36,162 nucleotides of DNA from assembly GCA_017859655.1 (NCBI GenBank), contig JAFMMO010000011.1:1-36162 (forward strand), written 5' to 3'. Shown here one piece after another: positions 23,413 to 33,979 of this stretch; position 1 is the stretch's first letter; each line of letters starts with the position of its first letter. Source of the DNA: Pseudomonadota bacterium. Its GTDB lineage: Bacteria > Planctomycetota > UBA8108 > UBA1146. A program made the position numbers and the translations under genes. The notes beneath the pieces are model-generated. The model searched no databases. It saw only the letters and a list, made by a program, of their open reading frames with translations, and was not told where the DNA came from.

Positions 23413-26400
23413 GTGACCGCCGACCCCTTCGCTCACGCCGGTGCCGTTCCCCGTCCCGACGGATCCCCCTCTTCGGGGGGACCCACGGGCCCGGGCCCGA
23501 GTCTCCGCCCTTCGCGTCCGCGCTGCGCGCGCCGGGCCCCCCGGCTCCTCCCGCTCCTCCTCCTCGGCTTCGCGGCGGGGCTCCCGGCCCAGGAGTCGTC
23601 GGGGCCGGCGTGGCTCCCGGTCCCGGCGGAGTCGCTTCAGGGGATCGTCGACGGAATCGAGAGAGCCCGGGGTGAAGGAGAGCCGAGGCGTGAGCGCGCC
23701 GCCCTGGAGCGCCTCGCTCAGGCCCTGCTCGAGCAAGTGCCGGACGGCGGGTTCCCCACCGGCGCCGGGCGCTGGACGGGCCCGGGAGCCTACCTGCGGG
23801 CCGCGGCGGCCGGTCTTCCCCCGGATGAGCGGACCCTCCTCATCGATGCCATCGACCTCCTCGTGGAGGCGCGCCTCGAGCGAGAGCCGGCCTTCGAGGA
23901 GATCGAGCGCTGGCTGCGGGACCTCCCCCTCTCCGACCGCTTCGACCCCCTCCGGGCGGAGGTGGCGGCTCGCGCCCTCGAGGAGGGCCGCCTCGACACC
24001 TGGGTCGAGCAGACGAGGCGGGGCGCGCCGGCCGGTGTCACCCTCGAGCGCAGCACCCTCGAGCGCTGGCTCCGCTCGCGGCGTCCGATGCGTGCGGCGG
24101 ACTCACTCGGTCAGCCGCTGCACGGGGTCCTCCGGGTCGGTTGGCCGGAAGGAACCGATGACCGCTCCCCCTGGAGCGACGGCGGGCTGCAGGTGGAGCC
24201 GGTGGTCACCGCCGACCGGGTCCACTTCGCGACCCCCGACGGCGTGCACTGCTGGGACACCGTCGGCGGGCGCGAGCTCTGGTTCTTCCCCTTCGCGGGT
24301 GACTCTCCCCCCCTCCTGCCCGGCAGCCTCCGAAGGCCGGTCCTCTGCGGCCCCACGCTCATCGTCACCACCGAGCGGGGCGTGGTCGGGCTGGATCGGG
24401 AGAGCGGGGCGACCCGCTTCCGCCTCTCGGGGCGGGAGCTCTTCGCTCCCTCCCCCGCCGGGAAGGGCGCCTCCGACGAGGGAACCGCCGCCCAGGCTCC
24501 CTCCTCAAGGTCGAATCCGATCCTCGCGATCGGAGCGCCGATCCTCACGGAGATCGGCGCGCTCCTCGTGGTCGCGAGAGACCTCGAGGGAACTCTCGAC
24601 TTGCGCCTCCTGCACATCGATCCCGACGGCGAGGTCCTCTGGTCGAGGGACGCGGGCTCCGCGCTCGGAAGCGGGTACCTCGCGTTGAGCAGCGTGATCG
24701 TGCCTCCCCGGACCCGGGGCGACACGGCGCTCATCGCATCCGGAAGGGGCTCCCTCCTCTGCCACTCCCTCCTCGACGGCGCACTCGCCTGGGCCGCCCC
24801 CTACCCGGCCTACGCACCCACGGCCCAGCAGGATGCGCTCCGCGCGCTCCCCGCCCGGAGAGAGGCGAAGCTCGAGCGCCTCGGAGGCTCCGCCCTGCTC
24901 ACGACGCGGGATTCGAGCGGACTCCATGTCATCGACCCGAGCGACGGGCGCGTGCGCTTCCGGATCCCTCTGGGCGCCGGCCGCTGGTGGTGCGCGGACT
25001 TCGACGAGGCGGGGAGAATCGAGCTGCTCATCGCAGGGGAGCGAGAGTGGTCCGCGTGGACGATCCCCGACGCCGACCGGCGTGGGGAGTCGCCGACCTG
25101 CCTCGGTGAGTTCGTGCTCGATCCGGCCCTGCCGTCCTTCACGGGCCCCCCCGAGCCCACCTCTGCCGGCTGGTGGCTCCCTCACCGGAGCGGCGCCTAC
25201 TCCGTGGGAGAAGGCGGCGCCATCACGGCCGCGATCGAGGTGCACACCGAAGACACGATCCGCCGAGTGCTGCCGACGGGAACCGGCATGCTCATCATCG
25301 GGGAAGGCTCCATCGAGCTTCGCCAGCCCTGCGCGGCGGAGCCGGACTCCCTTCTCCACTGGTGGCCCGCGATCGCCCGGGGTGAGTGGTCCGTCCTCCC
25401 CGACCCGCTCCCCGCGATTCCGACCGAAGCGGGCATCGAGCGGCGGCGGGATGAGGAGGAGATCGCCCGAACCATCCTCCTTCAACTGCGCCGCCCCGGG
25501 GTCGAGGCGGAGATCCGTCGCCGCCTCGTGCCCGCGGCGCTCGGGCGGATCCTCCGCGCGGACGAGCGCACCCGCGCCACCGTCGCCGAGGGAGAGGAGG
25601 CGGCGCGACGCGGCGAAGGGCCCCTCGCGGTCGAGCTCTGCTGGCTCGCCCTTCGGATCGGTGACCCGGACGCCTCCATCGACCGACCCGGGGTCGGACC
25701 GGTGGAGCTCGAGGTGGCGATCCACGCGATCCTCGCGGGCCTTCGGGATGGGGAGGAGCGACTCCCCCTCCAGGATGAGCTCGAGCTCCGCGCCCGCGCC
25801 GCGCTCCGCTCGCTGCCGAGCGACCGGATCGACGCGCGCCTCGAGCTCGCCCGGCTCCACCCCGGCACCGCGGTCGGCCGTCGCGTCTCCCTCGAGGCGG
25901 CGGAGCAGCTCTATCGCTTCGGGAACCTCCGAGCCTCCATCGAGCTCCTTGAGTCCCTCGTGCTCTTCGAGCCCCTCAACGCGGAGGCGGTCGAGGCTCG
26001 GCTCCGGATCGTCGAGCTCGCGGCGGAGCGGGGGGACCGCGCGCGGGCCCTGCAGCTCATCTCCGAGCTCTCCCGCGACTTCGGAGATCTCCCCCTCGAG
26101 GTCTCCACCCCGGATGGGCCCCGCACGGTCACGGTCCGGGAGAGGGCCACGGCGCTGGCCCGCCGGATTCCCGAGGGGGAGACGAGGCGGCGTGACGCCG
26201 TGGCCCTTCCCCTCGAGCCGGTCTGGCGCGCACGCACCGAGCTCGACCACATCCGCAATCTCCGCGTCACCCCCCTGCTCGACGGGGAGCGCTACCTCAC
26301 CGTCTCCAGACGCTCTCTCGGCGTCCGGATCGCTCGCACCGGAGAGCGGGTCTGGCACCGGACCCTGCCACGATCTCCGACCCTCGAGCGCATCCCGAGC

Positions 26401-28488
26401 TGGTCCGACATCGGGAGGTTCACCGATCCGATCGCCATCGACGAGGAGACCTTCTGGATCTCCGACCGCCGCGAGATCCTGCAGATCCGCCTCTCGAGCG
26501 GAGAGGTCCTCCGCCGACACTCCCTCCCTCCGATCGAGACCGAGGAGGGGGAAAGCACGATCCAGGGGATCGAGCGGGCGCAGCTCGCGGAGGGACACCT
26601 CCTCATTGTCGGCGAGGGGCAGACCCTCCACGTGCTCGAGCTGAAGAGCGGCGCGCAACGCTGGCAGCGCCCGCTGCCGGGCCCTCTCGAGGGGCCGCTC
26701 TCGGTCCGTGACGGGCGGATCCTCCTCGGACTCATCGGCCCCGCCTCGGTCCAGATCTGGTCCCTCGAGGACGGGAGCACCATCGGGGAGGAGGACCTCT
26801 CCTGGCGGGGCGCGCGCCTCGCACAGGAGCCCTGCTTCGCGCCGATCGACGACGGAGACCCCACCTCCGGGAACGACATCATCATCGCGGAGAGCTCGGG
26901 AACCCTCCGCCGGGTCGACCTCGCCACCGGCGAGGAGCGCTGGAGCCACACCTTCCCCTCGCGGATCCGCGCCATCCATCGCGCCGGAGAGCCGCGATTC
27001 TGGACCGCCGAGCTCCTCTGGTCCCGAGTGACCCCGACCCTCGTGGGCTTCGATCCTGAGAGCGGGGAGCTCCTGTGGCAGAAGACCTTCGCCGCGCGCC
27101 GCCGACCGCTGCACCAGCTCCTCTTCGCGGACGACGACCTCTACTTCGTGGAGGGGGACTACAACCGGCGCGTCGCCGGGTGTCTCGAGGTTCCGCGTGC
27201 TTTCGCCGACCGGGGAGCGGGGCCGGCCCGTGAGCTCCGCACCCGCTGGACCACCCCCCTCGCGCAGAGCTGGGATGTGCCGAAGCTCTCCTTGCACCAG
27301 GACTGGCTGATCGTCGTCGACACCCTGAGCTGCGAGCTCACCTTCATCTCGCGAGAGGTCGGGCTCCCGATCCCCCCACGCGACGGCTTCGAGGCGGCCT
27401 ACGCCTTCCTCCCCCAGCGCCAGCGCCTCGACTTCGCCGGGTTCATCGACGGCACCCTCGTACTCGAGACGGCGCGGGGCGCGCTCGGCCTCCGCGCCAT
27501 CGATCCGGTGGCGGAGCGCGCAGAACTCTGGCGCCGGCTTCGAGGCGGCGCGTCGGGAGGGGCCGGAGCCCCCGCAGGCGCCCTCACCGATGCCTCCCGC
27601 GCCTTCCGGAGGAAGGACCCGGAGACGGCTCTCCGGATCGTCGGCGAGGCGGTCGAGCGCCCCTCGCTCGACCTCGCCCGGCGCGCGCGACTCCTCGAGA
27701 GCCTCGAGGCGTACGGTGAAGCGGTCGGGGAGTCGGGTCCCCCGCAGTGGCGGATCCCCCGGCTGGAGAGCCCCCCCCGGATCGATGGCTCCCTCGGGGA
27801 GGCTTGGAACGCGGCGAACGCCTGGCTGGTCGAGCACCCCCGGTACTTCCACCCGATTCAGGGCTCGCGCGAAGACTCGAATGCCTGGCAGGGTCGTCGA
27901 GACCTCTCCGCCCTCCTCCTCGCCGGCTGGTCCGACGAGGGCTTCCACCTCGCGCTCGACGTCACCGACGACAGCATCCAGGCCTACGATGGAGAGGCGG
28001 ACGACTGGATCGGGGACTGCCTCCTGCTCGCGCTCGACCTCCTCGGCGATGGAGGAGCCCGCGCCGGCCCGGATGACCAGCTCTTCACCCTCGCGCTGGT
28101 GGTGCCCCGTCGTCAGGCTCCGGGGGGCCCGCCCCCCGGCGGCGGGGGCGACCCGGCCGACGGGGATGCCCCCCCTCCCGGCGGAGAGGAGGAGGAGGAC
28201 GACCGCCCCGAGGGGACCTTCCAGGTCCTCCGCAAGGCGGACAACTCCGGTGTCGTGTACGAGGCCACGATCCCCTGGTCCACCTTCCAGCAGGCGCGGG
28301 ACCAGCTCGCCGTCCCCCACCCGGGGATGAGCTTCCGGATGAACCTCCTCCTGACCGACGACGACAGCGGGCGCGGGGCGACCTCCTACCTGAGCCTCAC
28401 CACCGGTCAGATGCTCCGCGACGAGCGAAGCGCGGTGTGGGATGTGTTCGCGCCGGAGCGCTTCCCCCGGATCATCCTCGGTCGCTGA
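23413..28488 (+). CDS. Giant exported PQQ-like beta-propeller protein with TPR-like middle and CBM9-like C-terminus
   Basis: A 1,691-residue protein. An Arg-rich start is followed by a signal peptide, about 40-57 (RLLPLLLLGFAAGLPAQ). Two blocks of PQQ-like propeller repeats are visible: one at about 230-640 (GVHCWDTVGGRELWFF, GVVGLDRESGATRFRL, LHVIDPSDGRVRF) and one at about 940-1370 (LHVLELKSGAQRWQRPL, TLRRVDLATGEERWSHTF, LVGFDPESGELLWQKTF). Between them are helical TPR-like repeats (AAEQLYRFGNLRASIELLES). The C-terminus, about 1440-1690, resembles the CBM9/DOMON-like fold (LESPPRIDGSLGEAW) interrupted by a Pro/Gly/Glu-rich insert. These propellers usually act as scaffolds; PQQ need not be bound. 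The GTG start has GGGAGGAG upstream. No catalytic motif is evident, so the role is unknown, probably periplasmic or on the outer membrane. Confidence 0.8.
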   Translation: MTADPFAHAGAVPRPDGSPSSGGPTGPGPSLRPSRPRCARRAPRLLPLLLLGFAAGLPAQESSGPAWLPVPAESLQGIVDGIERARGEGEPRRERAALERLAQALLEQVPDGGFPTGAGRWTGPGAYLRAAAAGLPPDERTLLIDAIDLLVEARLEREPAFEEIERWLRDLPLSDRFDPLRAEVAARALEEGRLDTWVEQTRRGAPAGVTLERSTLERWLRSRRPMRAADSLGQPLHGVLRVGWPEGTDDRSPWSDGGLQVEPVVTADRVHFATPDGVHCWDTVGGRELWFFPFAGDSPPLLPGSLRRPVLCGPTLIVTTERGVVGLDRESGATRFRLSGRELFAPSPAGKGASDEGTAAQAPSSRSNPILAIGAPILTEIGALLVVARDLEGTLDLRLLHIDPDGEVLWSRDAGSALGSGYLALSSVIVPPRTRGDTALIASGRGSLLCHSLLDGALAWAAPYPAYAPTAQQDALRALPARREAKLERLGGSALLTTRDSSGLHVIDPSDGRVRFRIPLGAGRWWCADFDEAGRIELLIAGEREWSAWTIPDADRRGESPTCLGEFVLDPALPSFTGPPEPTSAGWWLPHRSGAYSVGEGGAITAAIEVHTEDTIRRVLPTGTGMLIIGEGSIELRQPCAAEPDSLLHWWPAIARGEWSVLPDPLPAIPTEAGIERRRDEEEIARTILLQLRRPGVEAEIRRRLVPAALGRILRADERTRATVAEGEEAARRGEGPLAVELCWLALRIGDPDASIDRPGVGPVELEVAIHAILAGLRDGEERLPLQDELELRARAALRSLPSDRIDARLELARLHPGTAVGRRVSLEAAEQLYRFGNLRASIELLESLVLFEPLNAEAVEARLRIVELAAERGDRARALQLISELSRDFGDLPLEVSTPDGPRTVTVRERATALARRIPEGETRRRDAVALPLEPVWRARTELDHIRNLRVTPLLDGERYLTVSRRSLGVRIARTGERVWHRTLPRSPTLERIPSWSDIGRFTDPIAIDEETFWISDRREILQIRLSSGEVLRRHSLPPIETEEGESTIQGIERAQLAEGHLLIVGEGQTLHVLELKSGAQRWQRPLPGPLEGPLSVRDGRILLGLIGPASVQIWSLEDGSTIGEEDLSWRGARLAQEPCFAPIDDGDPTSGNDIIIAESSGTLRRVDLATGEERWSHTFPSRIRAIHRAGEPRFWTAELLWSRVTPTLVGFDPESGELLWQKTFAARRRPLHQLLFADDDLYFVEGDYNRRVAGCLEVPRAFADRGAGPARELRTRWTTPLAQSWDVPKLSLHQDWLIVVDTLSCELTFISREVGLPIPPRDGFEAAYAFLPQRQRLDFAGFIDGTLVLETARGALGLRAIDPVAERAELWRRLRGGASGGAGAPAGALTDASRAFRRKDPETALRIVGEAVERPSLDLARRARLLESLEAYGEAVGESGPPQWRIPRLESPPRIDGSLGEAWNAANAWLVEHPRYFHPIQGSREDSNAWQGRRDLSALLLAGWSDEGFHLALDVTDDSIQAYDGEADDWIGDCLLLALDLLGDGGARAGPDDQLFTLALVVPRRQAPGGPPPGGGGDPADGDAPPPGGEEEEDDRPEGTFQVLRKADNSGVVYEATIPWSTFQQARDQLAVPHPGMSFRMNLLLTDDDSGRGATSYLSLTTGQMLRDERSAVWDVFAPERFPRIILGR

Positions 28489-28582: not shown

Positions 28583-30037
28583 ATGACGGGGGAGGACGAT
28601 GCAGATCGAGGCGGTCGGCCCGACCGACGGGTCCTCGGTCGCTGTGCCCTGCTCCTCAGCCTGCTCCTCGCGGGGTTGCTGACCGGCTGCGCCTCGCCGA
28701 TCGACGGTGCGCGGGGCTTCCCCCCCTTCTTCGAGCGCGGCCCGGCCTCCTCCACCGACCTCGACGGACAGGGCCCCGAGTTCGCGCGGAGCTCCGATCC
28801 GGGCCGGGTCACGCGGATCTGGCCGCTCTACTCCCACACGGAGAGCCCGAACCGCACCACCACCCGGGTCCTCCACCCCATCTTCAAGCACGAGGTCACC
28901 CCCGAGGAAACGCAGACGTGGCTCCTGCCCCTCTACCTGCGGACCCTGCGGGAGCACGGCGGGCCGGGGCGGGTCGATCGACACACCCTCCTCCTCCCCT
29001 TCCTCTGGGGCCGGGATCATGAGCTCGGCTCGTACTTCGGCGTCTTCCCGATCGGGGGCTCGATCACGGGTCTCCTCGGCCTCGATCGGATCGAGTTCGT
29101 GCTGTTCCCCCTCTACACCCGGACCCGCGACCGGGACCGGGTCGCGCACCATGTCCTCTTTCCCCTCATCCACTGGACCTCGGGGACACGACTCCAGGGG
29201 TGGCGCGTCTTCCCCTTCCACTCCCACTACGAGGGCTACACCAGCGACGGGGAGCCTCGCTTCCGCAGCTCCTCGTGGCTCTGGCCCCTCATCCACCGGC
29301 ACGAAGCGGATCTCAACACGGACCAGCCGACCCTCACCCGGTGGGTCTTCCCCCTCTACGGCACGATCGAGAGCGAGCGACTCCGCCGCTGGAGCGTCCT
29401 CTGGCCGCTCTTCTCGAAGGATGTCTACCCGGGACGGGGCTGGACGAGCGTGGCGGTCTTCCCTCTCCTCCGCCTCTCCTGGCAAGGGGAGGAGCTCGCG
29501 CAGTTCGACCTCTTCCCGCTCTACGGCCACAAGCACACCGAGGACTTCCGTCGGACCTTCATTCTCTGGCCGCTGCTCGGCGCGGAGGAGCAGCTCTACC
29601 ATGCGAACGCGACGCGACGCTCCCGCTGGTTCTTCCCCTTCTACCGCCATACCGAGAAGGAGGCGCGCAGGGAGGGACGGGACGGCACGACGCGCACCGA
29701 GATCACGGAGTCGAAGACGAGGATCTGGCCCCTCTACCGCCACGTCCTCCACGAGGATGGCCGACGCGAGTGGAGCCTGCTGGACCCTCTCCCGTTCCCG
29801 GACCCCCCCGGCTTCGACGCCTTCTACTCCCGCCTCTGGCGGATCTACCGCGCGGTGGAGGATCCGGCGGAGCAGCGGCAGGCCTGGGAGGCGCTCTGGG
29901 GCCTCGCCCACGGACAGAGCACCCCCGACGAGCGCTCGTGGTCGATCCTCGGCGGACTCATCGCCCGAACGGTTCGTTCGGGCGAGGGGGACGCGGAGGA
30001 CGAAACCACTTGGCGGCTCCTCTTCCTTCCGTTCTGA
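28583..30037 (+). CDS. Lipoprotein with about 16 tandem 'FPLY'-type repeats, unknown function
   Basis: A 484-residue protein. The signal segment is ALLLSLLLAGLLTGC, a lipobox with Cys36 as the predicted lipidated residue. From residue 80 to 385 a short hydrophobic-aromatic motif, (F/W/L)P(L/F)(Y/F/L/I), recurs about 16 times: prolines at about 81, 99, 116, 139, 156, 176, 194, 211, 235, 257, 275, 294, 312, 330, 352 and 383, most often 17-20 residues apart. Each is followed by a charged or His/Arg-rich turn. This suggests repeated beta strands, perhaps a barrel or solenoid. The last residue is Phe (LLFLPF), as in many outer-membrane barrels. I do not recognise the family. It lies 115 bases before mlaE, suggesting an outer-membrane partner in lipid transport. 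I start at ATG 28583, near GGAGG; the upstream open frame is a shadow. Confidence 0.72.
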   Translation: MTGEDDADRGGRPDRRVLGRCALLLSLLLAGLLTGCASPIDGARGFPPFFERGPASSTDLDGQGPEFARSSDPGRVTRIWPLYSHTESPNRTTTRVLHPIFKHEVTPEETQTWLLPLYLRTLREHGGPGRVDRHTLLLPFLWGRDHELGSYFGVFPIGGSITGLLGLDRIEFVLFPLYTRTRDRDRVAHHVLFPLIHWTSGTRLQGWRVFPFHSHYEGYTSDGEPRFRSSSWLWPLIHRHEADLNTDQPTLTRWVFPLYGTIESERLRRWSVLWPLFSKDVYPGRGWTSVAVFPLLRLSWQGEELAQFDLFPLYGHKHTEDFRRTFILWPLLGAEEQLYHANATRRSRWFFPFYRHTEKEARREGRDGTTRTEITESKTRIWPLYRHVLHEDGRREWSLLDPLPFPDPPGFDAFYSRLWRIYRAVEDPAEQRQAWEALWGLAHGQSTPDERSWSILGGLIARTVRSGEGDAEDETTWRLLFLPF

Positions 30038-30152
30038 TGCCCGCGCGCAGGGCGCACGTCCGAGGGACGCCGACCCTGCGGACGCAGGGGATTCCTTCCG
30101 TCCCACGAGGTGAGCCGCCTCCGGGACCGAGAGTGCGGGGAGAGACCGTCCA

Positions 30153-30965
30153 TTGAGCGGCCGTGAACGCGGTGCCGCCTCGGCCCTCGGACCGATCGAG
30201 GGCCTCGGCCACTTCATTGTCACCTCCGCCGAGCACGCGGGGTTCGGGCTCCTCCTCCTCGCCCGCGCCACGCTCCGGATCGGTCACGCCTTCAACCGCC
30301 GCCGACTCCGGGACATCCGAGCTCTCCTCCAGAACTACGCCCTCGGTGCCCTGCCGGTGATGGTCGTGGTCTCGATCTTCACCGGCATGATCCTCGCGCT
30401 GAACGGCGGCATCTCCCTGAAGGACTTCGGCCAGGAGGGGATGATCGGTCGGATCGTGGCGGTGTCGATGATCCGCGAGATGGGTCCGTTCATGACGGCG
30501 CTCATCCTCGCCGCGAGCATCGGGAGCGGCATCGCCGCGGAGATCGGCACGATGAAGGTGTCCGAGGAGATCGATGCCCTCGAGGTGATGTCGATCAGCC
30601 CGATTCGCTTCCTCGTGATCCCCCGCCTCGTGGCCCTGCTGCTCATCTGCCCGATGATGACGGTCTTCGCCGGGATCCTCGGGATCTTCGGCGGGATGCT
30701 CGTCGCGAACTTCCAGCTCGGGGTCTCCCCCACCACCTTCCAGCTGGACGCGCTCACGACCCTCACCCACAAGGACCTCTACACCGGTCTCCTCAAATCG
30801 ATCGTCTTCGGGATCACCATCGCGATCGTCGGCTGCACGCAGGGACTGGTCACACGCGGCGGCGCCACCGGCGTCGGGCGCGCGACCCGGAGGGCGGTCG
30901 TCGTCTCGTTCCTCCTCATCATCATGCTCGGCTACTACATCACCTGGTTCTTCTTCAATCGATGA
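30153..30965 (+). CDS. mlaE: MlaE-family lipid ABC transporter permease
   Basis: A 270-residue inner-membrane permease of the MlaE/YrbE type, which forms the membrane channel under an MCE protein and moves lipids between the membranes. It has five to six hydrophobic segments and the family signature REMGPFMTALILAASIGSGI followed by AAEIGTMKVSEEIDALEVM and PIRFLVIPRLVA. The AGR.G variant in Proteobacteria is AASIGSG here. The start is TTG 30153 after GGGGAGAG. It is followed 7 bases later by the ATPase gene, so mlaE-mlaF-mlaD is an operon. The substrate, phospholipid or other, cannot be told. Confidence 0.93.
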   Translation: MSGRERGAASALGPIEGLGHFIVTSAEHAGFGLLLLARATLRIGHAFNRRRLRDIRALLQNYALGALPVMVVVSIFTGMILALNGGISLKDFGQEGMIGRIVAVSMIREMGPFMTALILAASIGSGIAAEIGTMKVSEEIDALEVMSISPIRFLVIPRLVALLLICPMMTVFAGILGIFGGMLVANFQLGVSPTTFQLDALTTLTHKDLYTGLLKSIVFGITIAIVGCTQGLVTRGGATGVGRATRRAVVVSFLLIIMLGYYITWFFFNR

Positions 30966-30972
30966 GGACTTC

Positions 30973-31776
30973 ATGATCCGGATCGAGCAGGTCCACAAGA
31001 CCCTCAGCGGGCGCAGGATCCTCGACGGCCTCGACCTCGAGGTCGGCACCGGAGAGACCCTCGTCATCCTGGGCCGCTCCGGGATCGGCAAGAGCGTCAC
31101 CCTGCGTCACATCGTCGGTCTGATGAAGCCCGACTCCGGGCGAGTGACCGTCCTCGACCGCGACCTCGCCGGGCTGGACCCGGGCGCGCTCCTCCAGCAT
31201 CGGCGCAAGATCGGATACCTGTTCCAGGACGGCGCCCTCCTCAACTGGATGAATCTCGCGGAGAACGTCGCGCTCCCGCTCACCGAGCACGAGTCCCTCT
31301 CCCGACGGGAGGTGTCCGAGCGGGTCGAGGAGTGCCTCGCGATGGTCGAGCTGGAGAATCACATGGAGAAGCTCCCCTCGGAGATCTCGGGGGGGATGCG
31401 GAAGCGGGCCGGGCTGGCGCGGGCCCTGGTGAACCGCCCGCAGATCGTCCTCTACGACGAGCCCACCTCCGGCCTCGACCCGATCTCGAGCAGCCTGATC
31501 AACCGCCTGGTGAACGACCTGCGGGCCCGGCTCGGTGTCGCCCAGGTCGTCGTCACCCACGACATGGGCTCCGCCTTCGAGATCGGGGACCGCTGCGCGC
31601 TCCTCCACAATGGTCGCATTCGGGCGGTCGGCACTCCTGAGGAGATCCAGTCGAGCCCCGACCCCGCCGTTCAGCAGTTCATTCACGGCCACATCAACGG
31701 CCCCCTCAGTCACGATGTCCGGTATCACTCATCGGAAGCGCGAGAGACCGAGTCAGAGAAGGGAGACCAGCCATGA
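30973..31776 (+). CDS. mlaF: MlaF-family ABC transporter ATPase
   Basis: A 267-residue ABC ATPase. Walker A is GRSGIGKS, the Q-loop region IGYLFQDGALL, the signature ISGGMRKRAGLARAL (the Gly-Gly-Met-Arg-Lys-Arg form typical of MlaF), Walker B QIVLYDEPTSGLDP and the H-loop VVTHDM. It powers lipid movement through MlaE. The C-terminal tail, about 20 residues past the ATPase fold, is polar (SSEARETESEKGDQP). Its TGA overlaps the ATG of mlaD. No STAS protein (MlaB) gene accompanies it. Confidence 0.95.
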   Translation: MIRIEQVHKTLSGRRILDGLDLEVGTGETLVILGRSGIGKSVTLRHIVGLMKPDSGRVTVLDRDLAGLDPGALLQHRRKIGYLFQDGALLNWMNLAENVALPLTEHESLSRREVSERVEECLAMVELENHMEKLPSEISGGMRKRAGLARALVNRPQIVLYDEPTSGLDPISSSLINRLVNDLRARLGVAQVVVTHDMGSAFEIGDRCALLHNGRIRAVGTPEEIQSSPDPAVQQFIHGHINGPLSHDVRYHSSEARETESEKGDQP

Positions 31777-32906
31777 CCCGCGACCTGCTCGTCGGGCTCC
31801 TGTTCCTCGCCGCCATCCTGATCGTCGGGATGATCACCTTCATGGTGAAGGGCGTGCCCGCCGGAGCGGCCGCCTACCGGCTGGTCGTGGACTTCGAGGA
31901 CGTGGGCGGGCTGCAGCGCGGAGACCCGGTGCGGGTCCGCGGGATGAAGTTCGGCGAGGTGGAGGAGATCACCTTCTCGGAGGAGAAGGTCTCCGTCTCC
32001 CTCCGCCTGTTCCGCGAGATCCTGCCGAAGGAGGGCTACGCGATCGAGGTCCTTCCCTCGAGCCCTCTGGGCGGGACCTACCTCCGCTACGCGCCGGGGG
32101 ACGGGGACGCAGTCGCGGTGACCGGGCTCGTCGGGCGCGCAGGAGGAGACCTCTTCGGGACCATCAACGAGATCATCTCCGAGAACCGCGAGAGCATCCG
32201 CAAGAGCATCTCCAGCCTGCAGAACATCCTCCGGACCTTCGATGAGGAGGACGGGGTCGTCTCGGCCCTGATCAAGCGGGAGGACCTCCGGGAGAACTTC
32301 GTCCGCAGCATCGAGAACCTCGCCACCATCACGGGCAGGATCGAGGAGGGGGAGGGGACCCTCGGCGCGCTGATCTCCGACGATCAGTGGAGGTCCGACA
32401 TCAGCAGCACCCTCAGCGGCATCGCGGCCGCGGTCGAGCAGGTCCGCTCCGGGGAGGGGGTCGTGGGACGCCTGATCTACGACCCCGACATCGAGAGCAC
32501 CATCGAACGGATCCTCCAGCGCGCCGACCAGATCACCGATGACATCTCCCGGTCCGAGGGACTCCTCGGGCGACTCCTCTACGACAAGAGCCTCGGCAAG
32601 ATGGGGGAGGAGATCGTCCTGAACCTCCGACGGTTCTCCGATGACCTGCGAAACGAGGGCAGCCTGCTGCACGCCCTGACCTCCGACCCCACGACCCGTG
32701 AGCTGTTCACCGCCACGCTGTCGAATCTGAACGAGATCACGACCCGGGTCCAGAGCGGCCCGGGGACACTGCACAGCCTCGTCTACGAGGTGGGCCTCTA
32801 CGAGCAGGCGACCGAGGCGGTGACTCTCCTGCGCGACACAACCGAGGACGCCCGCGAGCAGGCCCCGATCAGCACCTTCTTCGGCATCCTGCTGGCCCCC
32901 TTCTGA
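31773..32906 (+). CDS. mlaD: MlaD-like MCE-domain protein with 34-residue repeats
   Basis: A 377-residue protein with one N-terminal membrane helix (LLVGLLFLAAILIVGMITFM), an MCE domain at about 36-112 (VVDFEDVGGLQRGDPVRVRG, LPSSPLGGTYLR), and a long helical C-terminus. MCE proteins assemble as hexamers and carry lipids through the periplasm. From about residue 160 a G-containing turn (EEDGVVSALI, GEGTLGALI, GEGVVGRLI, SEGLLGRLL, NEGSLLHAL, GPGTLHSLV) recurs six times at 33-35 residue intervals, implying a helical repeat stalk. That is longer than E. coli MlaD (183 residues) and closer to needle- or stalk-type MCE proteins. ATGA overlap with mlaF. It ends in Phe (LLAPF). Confidence 0.93.
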   Translation: MTRDLLVGLLFLAAILIVGMITFMVKGVPAGAAAYRLVVDFEDVGGLQRGDPVRVRGMKFGEVEEITFSEEKVSVSLRLFREILPKEGYAIEVLPSSPLGGTYLRYAPGDGDAVAVTGLVGRAGGDLFGTINEIISENRESIRKSISSLQNILRTFDEEDGVVSALIKREDLRENFVRSIENLATITGRIEEGEGTLGALISDDQWRSDISSTLSGIAAAVEQVRSGEGVVGRLIYDPDIESTIERILQRADQITDDISRSEGLLGRLLYDKSLGKMGEEIVLNLRRFSDDLRNEGSLLHALTSDPTTRELFTATLSNLNEITTRVQSGPGTLHSLVYEVGLYEQATEAVTLLRDTTEDAREQAPISTFFGILLAPF

Positions 32907-32911
32907 AGGAG
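32906..32911 (+). promoter_or_regulatory. Ribosome binding site that supports a CTG start
   Basis: AAGGAG lies six bases before CTG 32918 and overlaps the end of mlaD. There is no ATG, GTG or TTG in this frame between 32918 and 33038. Confidence 0.6.
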
Positions 32912-32917
32912 AGCCCC

Positions 32918-33979
32918 CTGACACCGCTCCTCCCTCTCCTCGCCCAGGCCGGGGACGACCCCTCGCGCCCGCTTCTCCTCTCCGTCGGCCTCATCCTCGG
33001 CGGGCTCTTCCTCCTGAGCATCGGGGGTGAGTCGATCGTGAGTGGCGCCTCGCGACTGGCCCTCCGCCTGCGCCTGACCCCGACGGTGATCGGCCTCACG
33101 GTGGTCGCGGCGGGCACCTCCCTGCCGGAGCTCGTCGTGAGCGTGATCGCCCAGCTCAAGGGGAGCCCCGCCCTCGCCGTCGGCAATGTCGTGGGGTCGA
33201 ACATCTTCAATATCGGGATGGTCCTCGGTCTCCTCGCCCTGATCCGCCCGCTCCCGATTCCTGGCAGCACGGCCCGCATCGAGTTCCCCGTCCTCCTCGC
33301 CGCCAGCCTCTCGATCCTCTGGCTCGGGCGGGGGCAGCCCCCCGCCGGATTCGACGAGGGGTACGGGTGGTTCTCTCCGGCGGAGGGGCGCGGGATGCTC
33401 GTCGTCCTCGTGATCTTCGTCGCCGCCACCATTCGCTCGGCGCGCCGGCTCGTCACCGAGACGGAGCGGGCGGAGTTCGAGGCGGAGGTCTCCGAGGTCA
33501 CCGGGGCCGAGGTCTCCCCCACCGTCCCGCTCGCGTGGCCGATCGCGCAGGTGATCCTGGGGGCCGCCGGGCTGTGGCTCGGAGGGAAGTGGCTCATCGA
33601 CGGATCGATCGATGTCGCCCTGGCCATGGGAATCAGCGAGAGGATCGTCGGCCTGACCGTGGTCGCGGGAGGAACCGGGGCTCCCGAGCTCGTCGCCTCC
33701 ATCATCGCCGTGCGTCGGGGGAAGGCGGACCTCGCCGTCGGAAACGTGCTTGGCTCCAACATCTTCAACCTGCTGGCGATTCTCGGCGTCGGCGCCTCGA
33801 TCGGCGGGCTCGCCGCCCCGATGGAAATCCTCCAGTGGGACGTCTGGTGGATGCTCGCCCTGACCCTGCTCCTCGTGCCGCTGTTCTTCCGAGCCGACAC
33901 GAGGATCCGACGGCTCGAGGGGGGCGTCATCCTCGCGACCTACCTCGCCTACATCGGCTCCCTCATCGTCCGCGGTTGA
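32918..33979 (+). CDS. Ca2+/Na+ (CaCA family) antiporter with probable CTG start
   Basis: A predicted 353-residue inner-membrane cation exchanger of the YrbG/CaxA type with two inverted halves. The alpha-1 motif is VVAAGTSLPELVVS (about 63-76) and the alpha-2 motif GGTGAPELVAS (about 251-261), where Ser-Leu is replaced by Gly-Ala; paired GN(V)xGSNIFN motifs follow each. The first standard start (GTG 33038) would delete the first membrane helix (SVGLILGGLFLLSIGGESIV), which the family needs. CTG 32918, six bases after AAGGAG, restores it. It lies 11 bases after mlaD. In E. coli the homologue yrbG lies beside mlaF, so the linkage to Mla recurs. The ions carried are not certain. Confidence 0.82.
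   Translation: MTPLLPLLAQAGDDPSRPLLLSVGLILGGLFLLSIGGESIVSGASRLALRLRLTPTVIGLTVVAAGTSLPELVVSVIAQLKGSPALAVGNVVGSNIFNIGMVLGLLALIRPLPIPGSTARIEFPVLLAASLSILWLGRGQPPAGFDEGYGWFSPAEGRGMLVVLVIFVAATIRSARRLVTETERAEFEAEVSEVTGAEVSPTVPLAWPIAQVILGAAGLWLGGKWLIDGSIDVALAMGISERIVGLTVVAGGTGAPELVASIIAVRRGKADLAVGNVLGSNIFNLLAILGVGASIGGLAAPMEILQWDVWWMLALTLLLVPLFFRADTRIRRLEGGVILATYLAYIGSLIVRG

Follow-up and report, generated by a model that had tools for sequence, protein, structure and literature searches.

For most diderm bacteria, it remains to be explained how phospholipids travel between the inner and the outer membrane when MlaA and MlaC are lacking (PMC10665443), and a study of the Veillonella transporter asks whether non-homologous proteins replace the missing components (PMC10665443). 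We describe a gene cluster in the 36,162-nucleotide stretch of DNA analysed here (the window), which is one of the contigs of a Planctomycetota metagenome-assembled genome (MAG) of 3.5 Mb and 90% completeness, called here G000. In this cluster, a gene encoding a repeat lipoprotein (called here LPP) lies directly upstream of mlaE, mlaF and mlaD (Table 1). The presence of the MlaE permease, of an adjoining MlaF ATPase and of an MlaD with a single MCE domain, the three marks of an MlaEFD lipid ABC transporter, identifies the transporter core as a known one; what would be new is a conserved, undescribed extra subunit. We propose that LPP is probably such a subunit, dedicated to the long-MlaD type of Mla (MCE) phospholipid transporter and acting as the outer-membrane station that meets MlaD in place of MlaA and MlaC. 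As a conserved lipoprotein encoded in the same operon and tied to a specific MlaD tail, it offers a concrete, testable and good candidate for the outer-membrane part known to be missing in these bacteria. If this is true, a large family of "hypothetical proteins" gains a place in the cell.

Conservation of LPP and its linkage to the mla genes

To which family LPP belongs was addressed by profile and structure-library searches. No Pfam or NCBIfam model matched the window LPP or 20 of its homologues, the models of MlaA (PF04333), of PqiC (PF03886, ABC_trans_aux) and of the MORN repeat (Pfam) included, and no PDB chain was matched by the single sequence or by an LPP profile. No publication describing the protein was found in a search limited to open-licence papers. 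The view that the LPP family is undescribed is strongly supported, and a preliminary description of this DNA, in which the lipoprotein was assigned to no recognised family, holds for the homologues as well. A first search set of 59 genomes contained such homologues in 39, mostly those of the nearest relatives, and a phylum-wide Planctomycetota set of 392 genomes contained them in 157, about 147 of which gave strong matches. A degenerate-pattern scan of named genomes, in which a single LPP sequence gave nothing and a seven-row alignment gave 15 named loci, further located LPP in Candidatus Abyssobacteria, Candidatus Poribacteria, a Desulfuromonadales MAG, a Leptospirales MAG and one further bacterium.

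The gene neighbourhood was then scored at LPP loci chosen from the stronger matches, which are not a random sample: 125 loci were fetched, four of them were cut by a contig end beside LPP and 121 were scored. LPP was located immediately 5' of mlaE, on the same strand and at less than 400 bases, at 110 of these 121 loci, which span 87 genus codes from about 40 family codes. The order is mlaE-mlaF-LPP-mlaD at two Planctomycetota loci and mlaF-LPP-mlaE-mlaD in Abyssobacteria and Poribacteria; the link between LPP and the mla genes therefore survives rearrangement. The preliminary description had proposed that the lipoprotein could be the outer-membrane partner of a variant Mla system, an idea that predicts consistent co-occurrence with mlaEFD and that would suffer if the homologues were mostly found away from mla genes. 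Co-occurrence was indeed what the neighbourhoods revealed, a nearby mlaE being missing at only 9 of the 121 loci.

Several loci deserve separate mention. In one Planctomycetota family (code f31; L066, L097, L098 and L101), a strong LPP homologue is kept apart from mlaE. The Leptospirales homologue (L080:8082-9470, + strand), 21% identical to the window protein, carries an ordinary signal peptide instead of a lipobox, and the nearest 8 kb or so contain no mla gene. Two LPP loci are found in records titled Bacillota and Dehalococcoidia (L085, QNYK01000057.1, and L086, NVWX01000005.1); both match Planctomycetota genomes (a contig of G008, the window's own family; UBA1146), and the record titles look wrong.

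MlaA, MlaC and the tailed MlaD

Does the system that accompanies LPP operate without MlaA and MlaC? The preliminary description had seen neither gene in the window, and a search of the whole G000 genome for MlaC (PF05494) and MlaA (PF04333) likewise returned none, the E. coli and Caulobacter controls being positive. The preliminary description had named canonical mlaA or mlaC genes elsewhere in the genome, serving this transporter, as an objection to its idea, and none came up here. This genome thus differs from the canonical six-part Mla system (MlaA to MlaF) by the lack of MlaA and MlaC. As for MlaB, also not seen in the preliminary description, no STAS gene was noted beside the operon, and no genome-wide search for one was made. 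MlaA is absent from 131 and MlaC from 138 of the 147 genomes with a strong LPP match. MlaC is rarer among these carriers (9 of 147 vs 35 of 245 others, p 0.013, uncorrected for kinship). None of the seven MlaA carriers among the 59 genomes of the first set gave a match in the single-protein LPP search. The stricter idea that LPP replaces MlaA wherever it occurs was dropped after the 392 genomes were considered: since MlaA is found in 16 and MlaC in 9 of the 147 strong LPP carriers, LPP and MlaA are not mutually exclusive in the phylum.

Six of the double carriers were examined (G126, G129, G156, G170, G187 and G269). In all six, MlaA and MlaC are encoded in a separate mla cluster that contains a short, tail-less MlaD of about 150 residues and no LPP, whereas LPP heads another mlaEFD operon whose MlaD is long and tailed. 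A tree of 145 MlaE proteins gave a similar partition: 108 LPP-linked MlaEs form one clade (SH-aLRT 94, quick tree), which takes in the Abyssobacteria, Poribacteria and Desulfuromonadales proteins, and the MlaA/MlaC-linked MlaEs fall outside it, even when the genome is shared. Separate clades and separate clusters therefore indicate two different machines that are able to coexist. The window's genome itself holds two further mlaE-mlaF-mlaD sets (L188 on G000:C155 and L189 on G000:C197), neither of which includes LPP or the MlaD tail; the second set has a very divergent MlaE.

The MlaD encoded with LPP in the window (377 residues) consists of a transmembrane helix, one MCE domain (residues 34-108), a long helical region and a C-terminal tail. 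Across phyla, the MlaDs of LPP operons keep a hydrophobic tail with the consensus EDxREQAPISTFxxxxFAxF. A strict pattern for this tail was matched by 76 of the 103 complete MlaDs of LPP loci vs none of the 32 MlaDs of other mla loci, which include the second Mla systems of the same genomes, where a short MlaD accompanies MlaC and MlaA. With a loose pattern, the counts were 95 of 97 LPP loci vs 3 of 31 others, these three being chance matches in short MlaDs. Because the LPP-linked MlaEs are nearly one clade, the agreement between tail and LPP is to be read as a strong correlation and was rejected as a statistical proof.

In the AlphaFold model of this MlaD, the MCE domain is confident and the extension is helical with low confidence. 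A C-terminal beta barrel was not predicted, no strand being found past residue 107, in the low-confidence region, and a barrel of the Veillonella type at the end of the protein was rejected. The model is in line with the published statement that the MlaD of the PVC group has no beta barrel (PMC10665443). The window system thus resembles the Veillonella-type MlaEFD (PMC10665443) in having a long MlaD and no MlaA or MlaC, and differs from it in two respects: the Veillonella MlaD ends in a beta barrel and the window MlaD in a short hydrophobic tail, its model showing no C-terminal strands, and the window system has an additional lipoprotein.

Two further observations concern MlaA-domain proteins. 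In genus g9, which has a protein with an MlaA domain and no LPP, a different small lipoprotein gene is located directly 3' of mlaD (L183:10913-11500 and L185:2893-3480); its product is perhaps another kind of partner. In many Planctomycetota (G020, G022, G023, G027, G028, G046, G209, G337, G354 and others), the MlaA domain lies inside an open frame of 640-980 residues, far longer than a standalone MlaA, a length that suggests a fusion of this domain to another one.

Repeat, predicted fold and proposed role of LPP

The preliminary description had counted about 16 FPLY motifs in LPP. This number is correct for a regular array of a looser motif, [FWLHV]P[LFI], and not for FPLY itself, of which only three copies are present. 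The looser motif occurs 18 times, 16 of them in the array at spacings of 17-31 residues (mostly 17-24), compared to a mean of 2.4 and a maximum of 10 in 5000 shuffles of the sequence. The 16 proline columns are nearly invariant across 21 homologues that are 24-39% identical to the window LPP, and the prolines persist among distant homologues while identity drops to 21-30%. Around each proline, the profile shows an aromatic residue at -4, Leu at -2, Trp or Phe at -1, Phe or Leu at +1 and Tyr or Phe at +2, charged residues being found more than five residues away on either side. At the N-terminus, the lipobox LLTGC is followed by Ala, so that there is no Asp at +2. The lipobox pattern was matched in 95 of 116 homologues and Asp at +2 in none; it should be noted that the +2 rule may not apply in Planctomycetota.

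Structure prediction of the lipoprotein alone, a check put forward in the preliminary description, gave a beta meander without a global match in the PDB. More precisely, the AlphaFold model of the mature protein (15 sequences; mean pLDDT 80, core above 90, pTM 0.63) is an all-beta meander of about 38 short strands with one late helix, in which each proline motif sits between two predicted strands. In this model the chain appears to fold back and forth as an antiparallel meander whose two edges differ: one carries the aromatic-proline side, the other the charged turns. Foldseek searches of the PDB and viral libraries gave no global match. Only local similarity was found, to MORN meanders, propellers and OspA with its single-layer sheet, and no TM-score exceeded 0.26; an assignment to a global fold was rejected on these values. 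LPP thus shares with MORN repeat proteins and OspA a weak local resemblance, that of long antiparallel beta meanders, but with such low scores and no Pfam MORN match it is not a member of these families.

Such a fold would also suit a carrier or bridge rather than a station, the long single meander acting as a rod or groove that moves acyl chains through the periplasm, as a lipid-tethered analogue of MlaC. The continuous aromatic and aliphatic spine that runs around the prolines of the 38-strand meander speaks for this function, as does the length of about 18 nm that the strands would span as a single layer (an estimate from strand spacing). However, the long MlaD already covers some of the distance, the pTM is only 0.63 and the spine may be a mere protein core, and we regard a carrier function as rather unlikely.

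Comparison with the lipoproteins of known MCE systems is informative. MlaA is a protein of about 200-250 residues and mostly helical. Like MlaA, the outer-membrane lipoprotein of the E. coli Mla system (PF04333), LPP is a lipoprotein that accompanies an MlaEFD transporter, but it is made of about 450 residues of beta repeats and has no PF04333 match. The MlaD that accompanies MlaA is short and comes with MlaC, that of LPP is long and tailed, and the six double carriers hold both pairings at separate loci. PqiC, from the PqiABC system, is thought to hold its MCE partner at the outer membrane (PMC10897342), and LPP is likewise a lipoprotein whose gene accompanies that of an MCE protein extending toward this membrane. 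By contrast, PqiC occurs with PqiA and the multi-MCE PqiB, LPP with MlaE, MlaF and a single-MCE MlaD, and LPP has no PF03886 match. By analogy, LPP would act like PqiC or MlaA while belonging to neither family.

In the mechanism that we favour, MlaE and MlaF would form the inner-membrane pump, from which the hexamer of the long MlaD would extend into the periplasm. LPP, lipid-anchored in the outer membrane, would be the station at the far end, and the hydrophobic MlaD tail would dock on LPP or on the adjacent membrane. Phospholipids could there be exchanged between the membrane and the MlaD channel, in either direction of transport, and the MlaC shuttle and MlaA would both be dispensable. The location of LPP in the outer membrane, its contact with MlaD and the transfer of lipids are what we infer from the genes. 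An outer-membrane partner is plausible in view of the lipobox without Asp at +2, the absence of MlaA and MlaC from most carriers and the matching MlaD tail. Of the partner role advanced in the preliminary description, the part that stands is an undescribed family that stays with mlaEFD in about 40 family codes and several phyla; its outer-membrane side is to be worded conditionally, and LPP is not a strict substitute for MlaA, found in 16 of the 147 strong carriers.

A variant of this mechanism is that the MlaD tails enter the outer membrane unaided and that LPP merely helps to assemble or stabilise the contact, a role like the one proposed for PqiC with PqiB. The tail is hydrophobic and conserved, and PqiC is the tether between PqiAB and the outer membrane (PMC10897342). 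This variant is close to the station role and inseparable from it with the present data; we give it very little credence.

Several observations weigh against LPP as the outer-membrane station. The fetched stretch lacks mlaE at nine LPP loci (L066, L072, L073, L080, L097, L098, L101, L120 and L135). The lipobox pattern used is missing from 21 of 116 homologues, some of them cut or mis-started, and the N-termini of the Abyssobacteria, Poribacteria and Desulfuromonadales proteins resemble ordinary signal peptides; lipidation of LPP is therefore not universal. LPP could also reside in the inner membrane or be bound to peptidoglycan. MlaA is present in 16 of 147 strong LPP carriers vs 41 of 245 other genomes (Fisher p 0.14), and on the MlaE tree the association of the tail with LPP comes down to no more than two or three independent pairs, all in the same direction. 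The nine loci where LPP stands alone (L066 to L135), together with the lack of detectable similarity to lipid-binding families, would also suit a structural envelope lipoprotein, a peptidoglycan or outer-membrane spacer that is co-transcribed and has no direct role in lipid transfer. Such a role seems decidedly unlikely, as 110 of 121 loci keep the linkage, which persists in three different gene orders, and as LPP does not occur in the further mla operons that these genomes contain.

Beyond the station role itself, it is possible, and we put it forward tentatively, that LPP and the tailed long MlaD define a third Mla architecture. A single beta-meander lipoprotein would here take over from both MlaA and MlaC as lipid acceptor and conduit, in a large part of the Planctomycetota and in some further diderm phyla.

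Gene layout and neighbouring genes

The features of the cluster are collected in Table 1. The spacings given in the preliminary description were reproduced with unconventional start codons: 115 bases separate the LPP stop from the TTG start of mlaE, and the best start of the antiporter gene is a CTG at 32918, preceded by GGAG, 11 bases past mlaD. The first conventional start of the latter, a GTG at 33038, would lose the first conserved residues, the TIGR00367 match beginning near 32975.

Table 1. Positions of the LPP, mla and antiporter features in the window, with the evidence for each.
Feature	Position	Strand	Evidence
LPP, repeat lipoprotein gene, 484 aa	28583..30037	+	ORF (ATG 28583, stop at 30037) and lipobox; homologues in 157/392 Planctomycetota genomes; no Pfam, NCBIfam or PDB match
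LPP lipoprotein signal sequence to lipobox Cys36 (LLTGC)	28583..28690	+	Sequence; lipobox in 95/116 homologues
LPP array, 16 [FWLHV]P[LFI] repeats, residues 80-385	28820..29737	+	Motif count, conserved Pro columns, predicted strands
mlaE, permease, TTG start	30153..30965	+	Pfam MlaE 3.5e-71; TIGR00056 227 bits (cut-off 212)
mlaF, ABC ATPase	30973..31776	+	Pfam ABC_tran 1.4e-30; NCBIfam MlaF equivalog 9.2e-53, under curated cut-off; operon position
mlaD, long form, 377 aa	31773..32906	+	Pfam MlaD 3.9e-12, one stretch; AlphaFold MCE domain confident
MlaD conserved C-terminal tail EDAREQAPISTFFGILLAPF	32844..32903	+	Conserved in LPP operons of different phyla
Calcium/sodium antiporter (CaCA), proposed CTG start	32918..33979	+	Na_Ca_ex 3.1e-59; TIGR00367 above its cut-off

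The preliminary description had counted the CaCA antiporter as a part of the block. Since the gene is found 3' of mlaD in the window's own family only, it was rejected as a member of the system and is a neighbour at the level of the family. On the other side of the cluster, a PQQ/BamB-like beta-propeller protein of 1691 residues, with a weak CBM9-like match close to its C-terminus, is encoded at 23413-28488 (+ strand), its stop codon lying 94 bases ahead of LPP. A relative of this protein is encoded immediately 5' of LPP throughout the family of the window and, more widely in the class, in several genomes (L056, L059, L063 and L067), and it may be a member of the same envelope operon.

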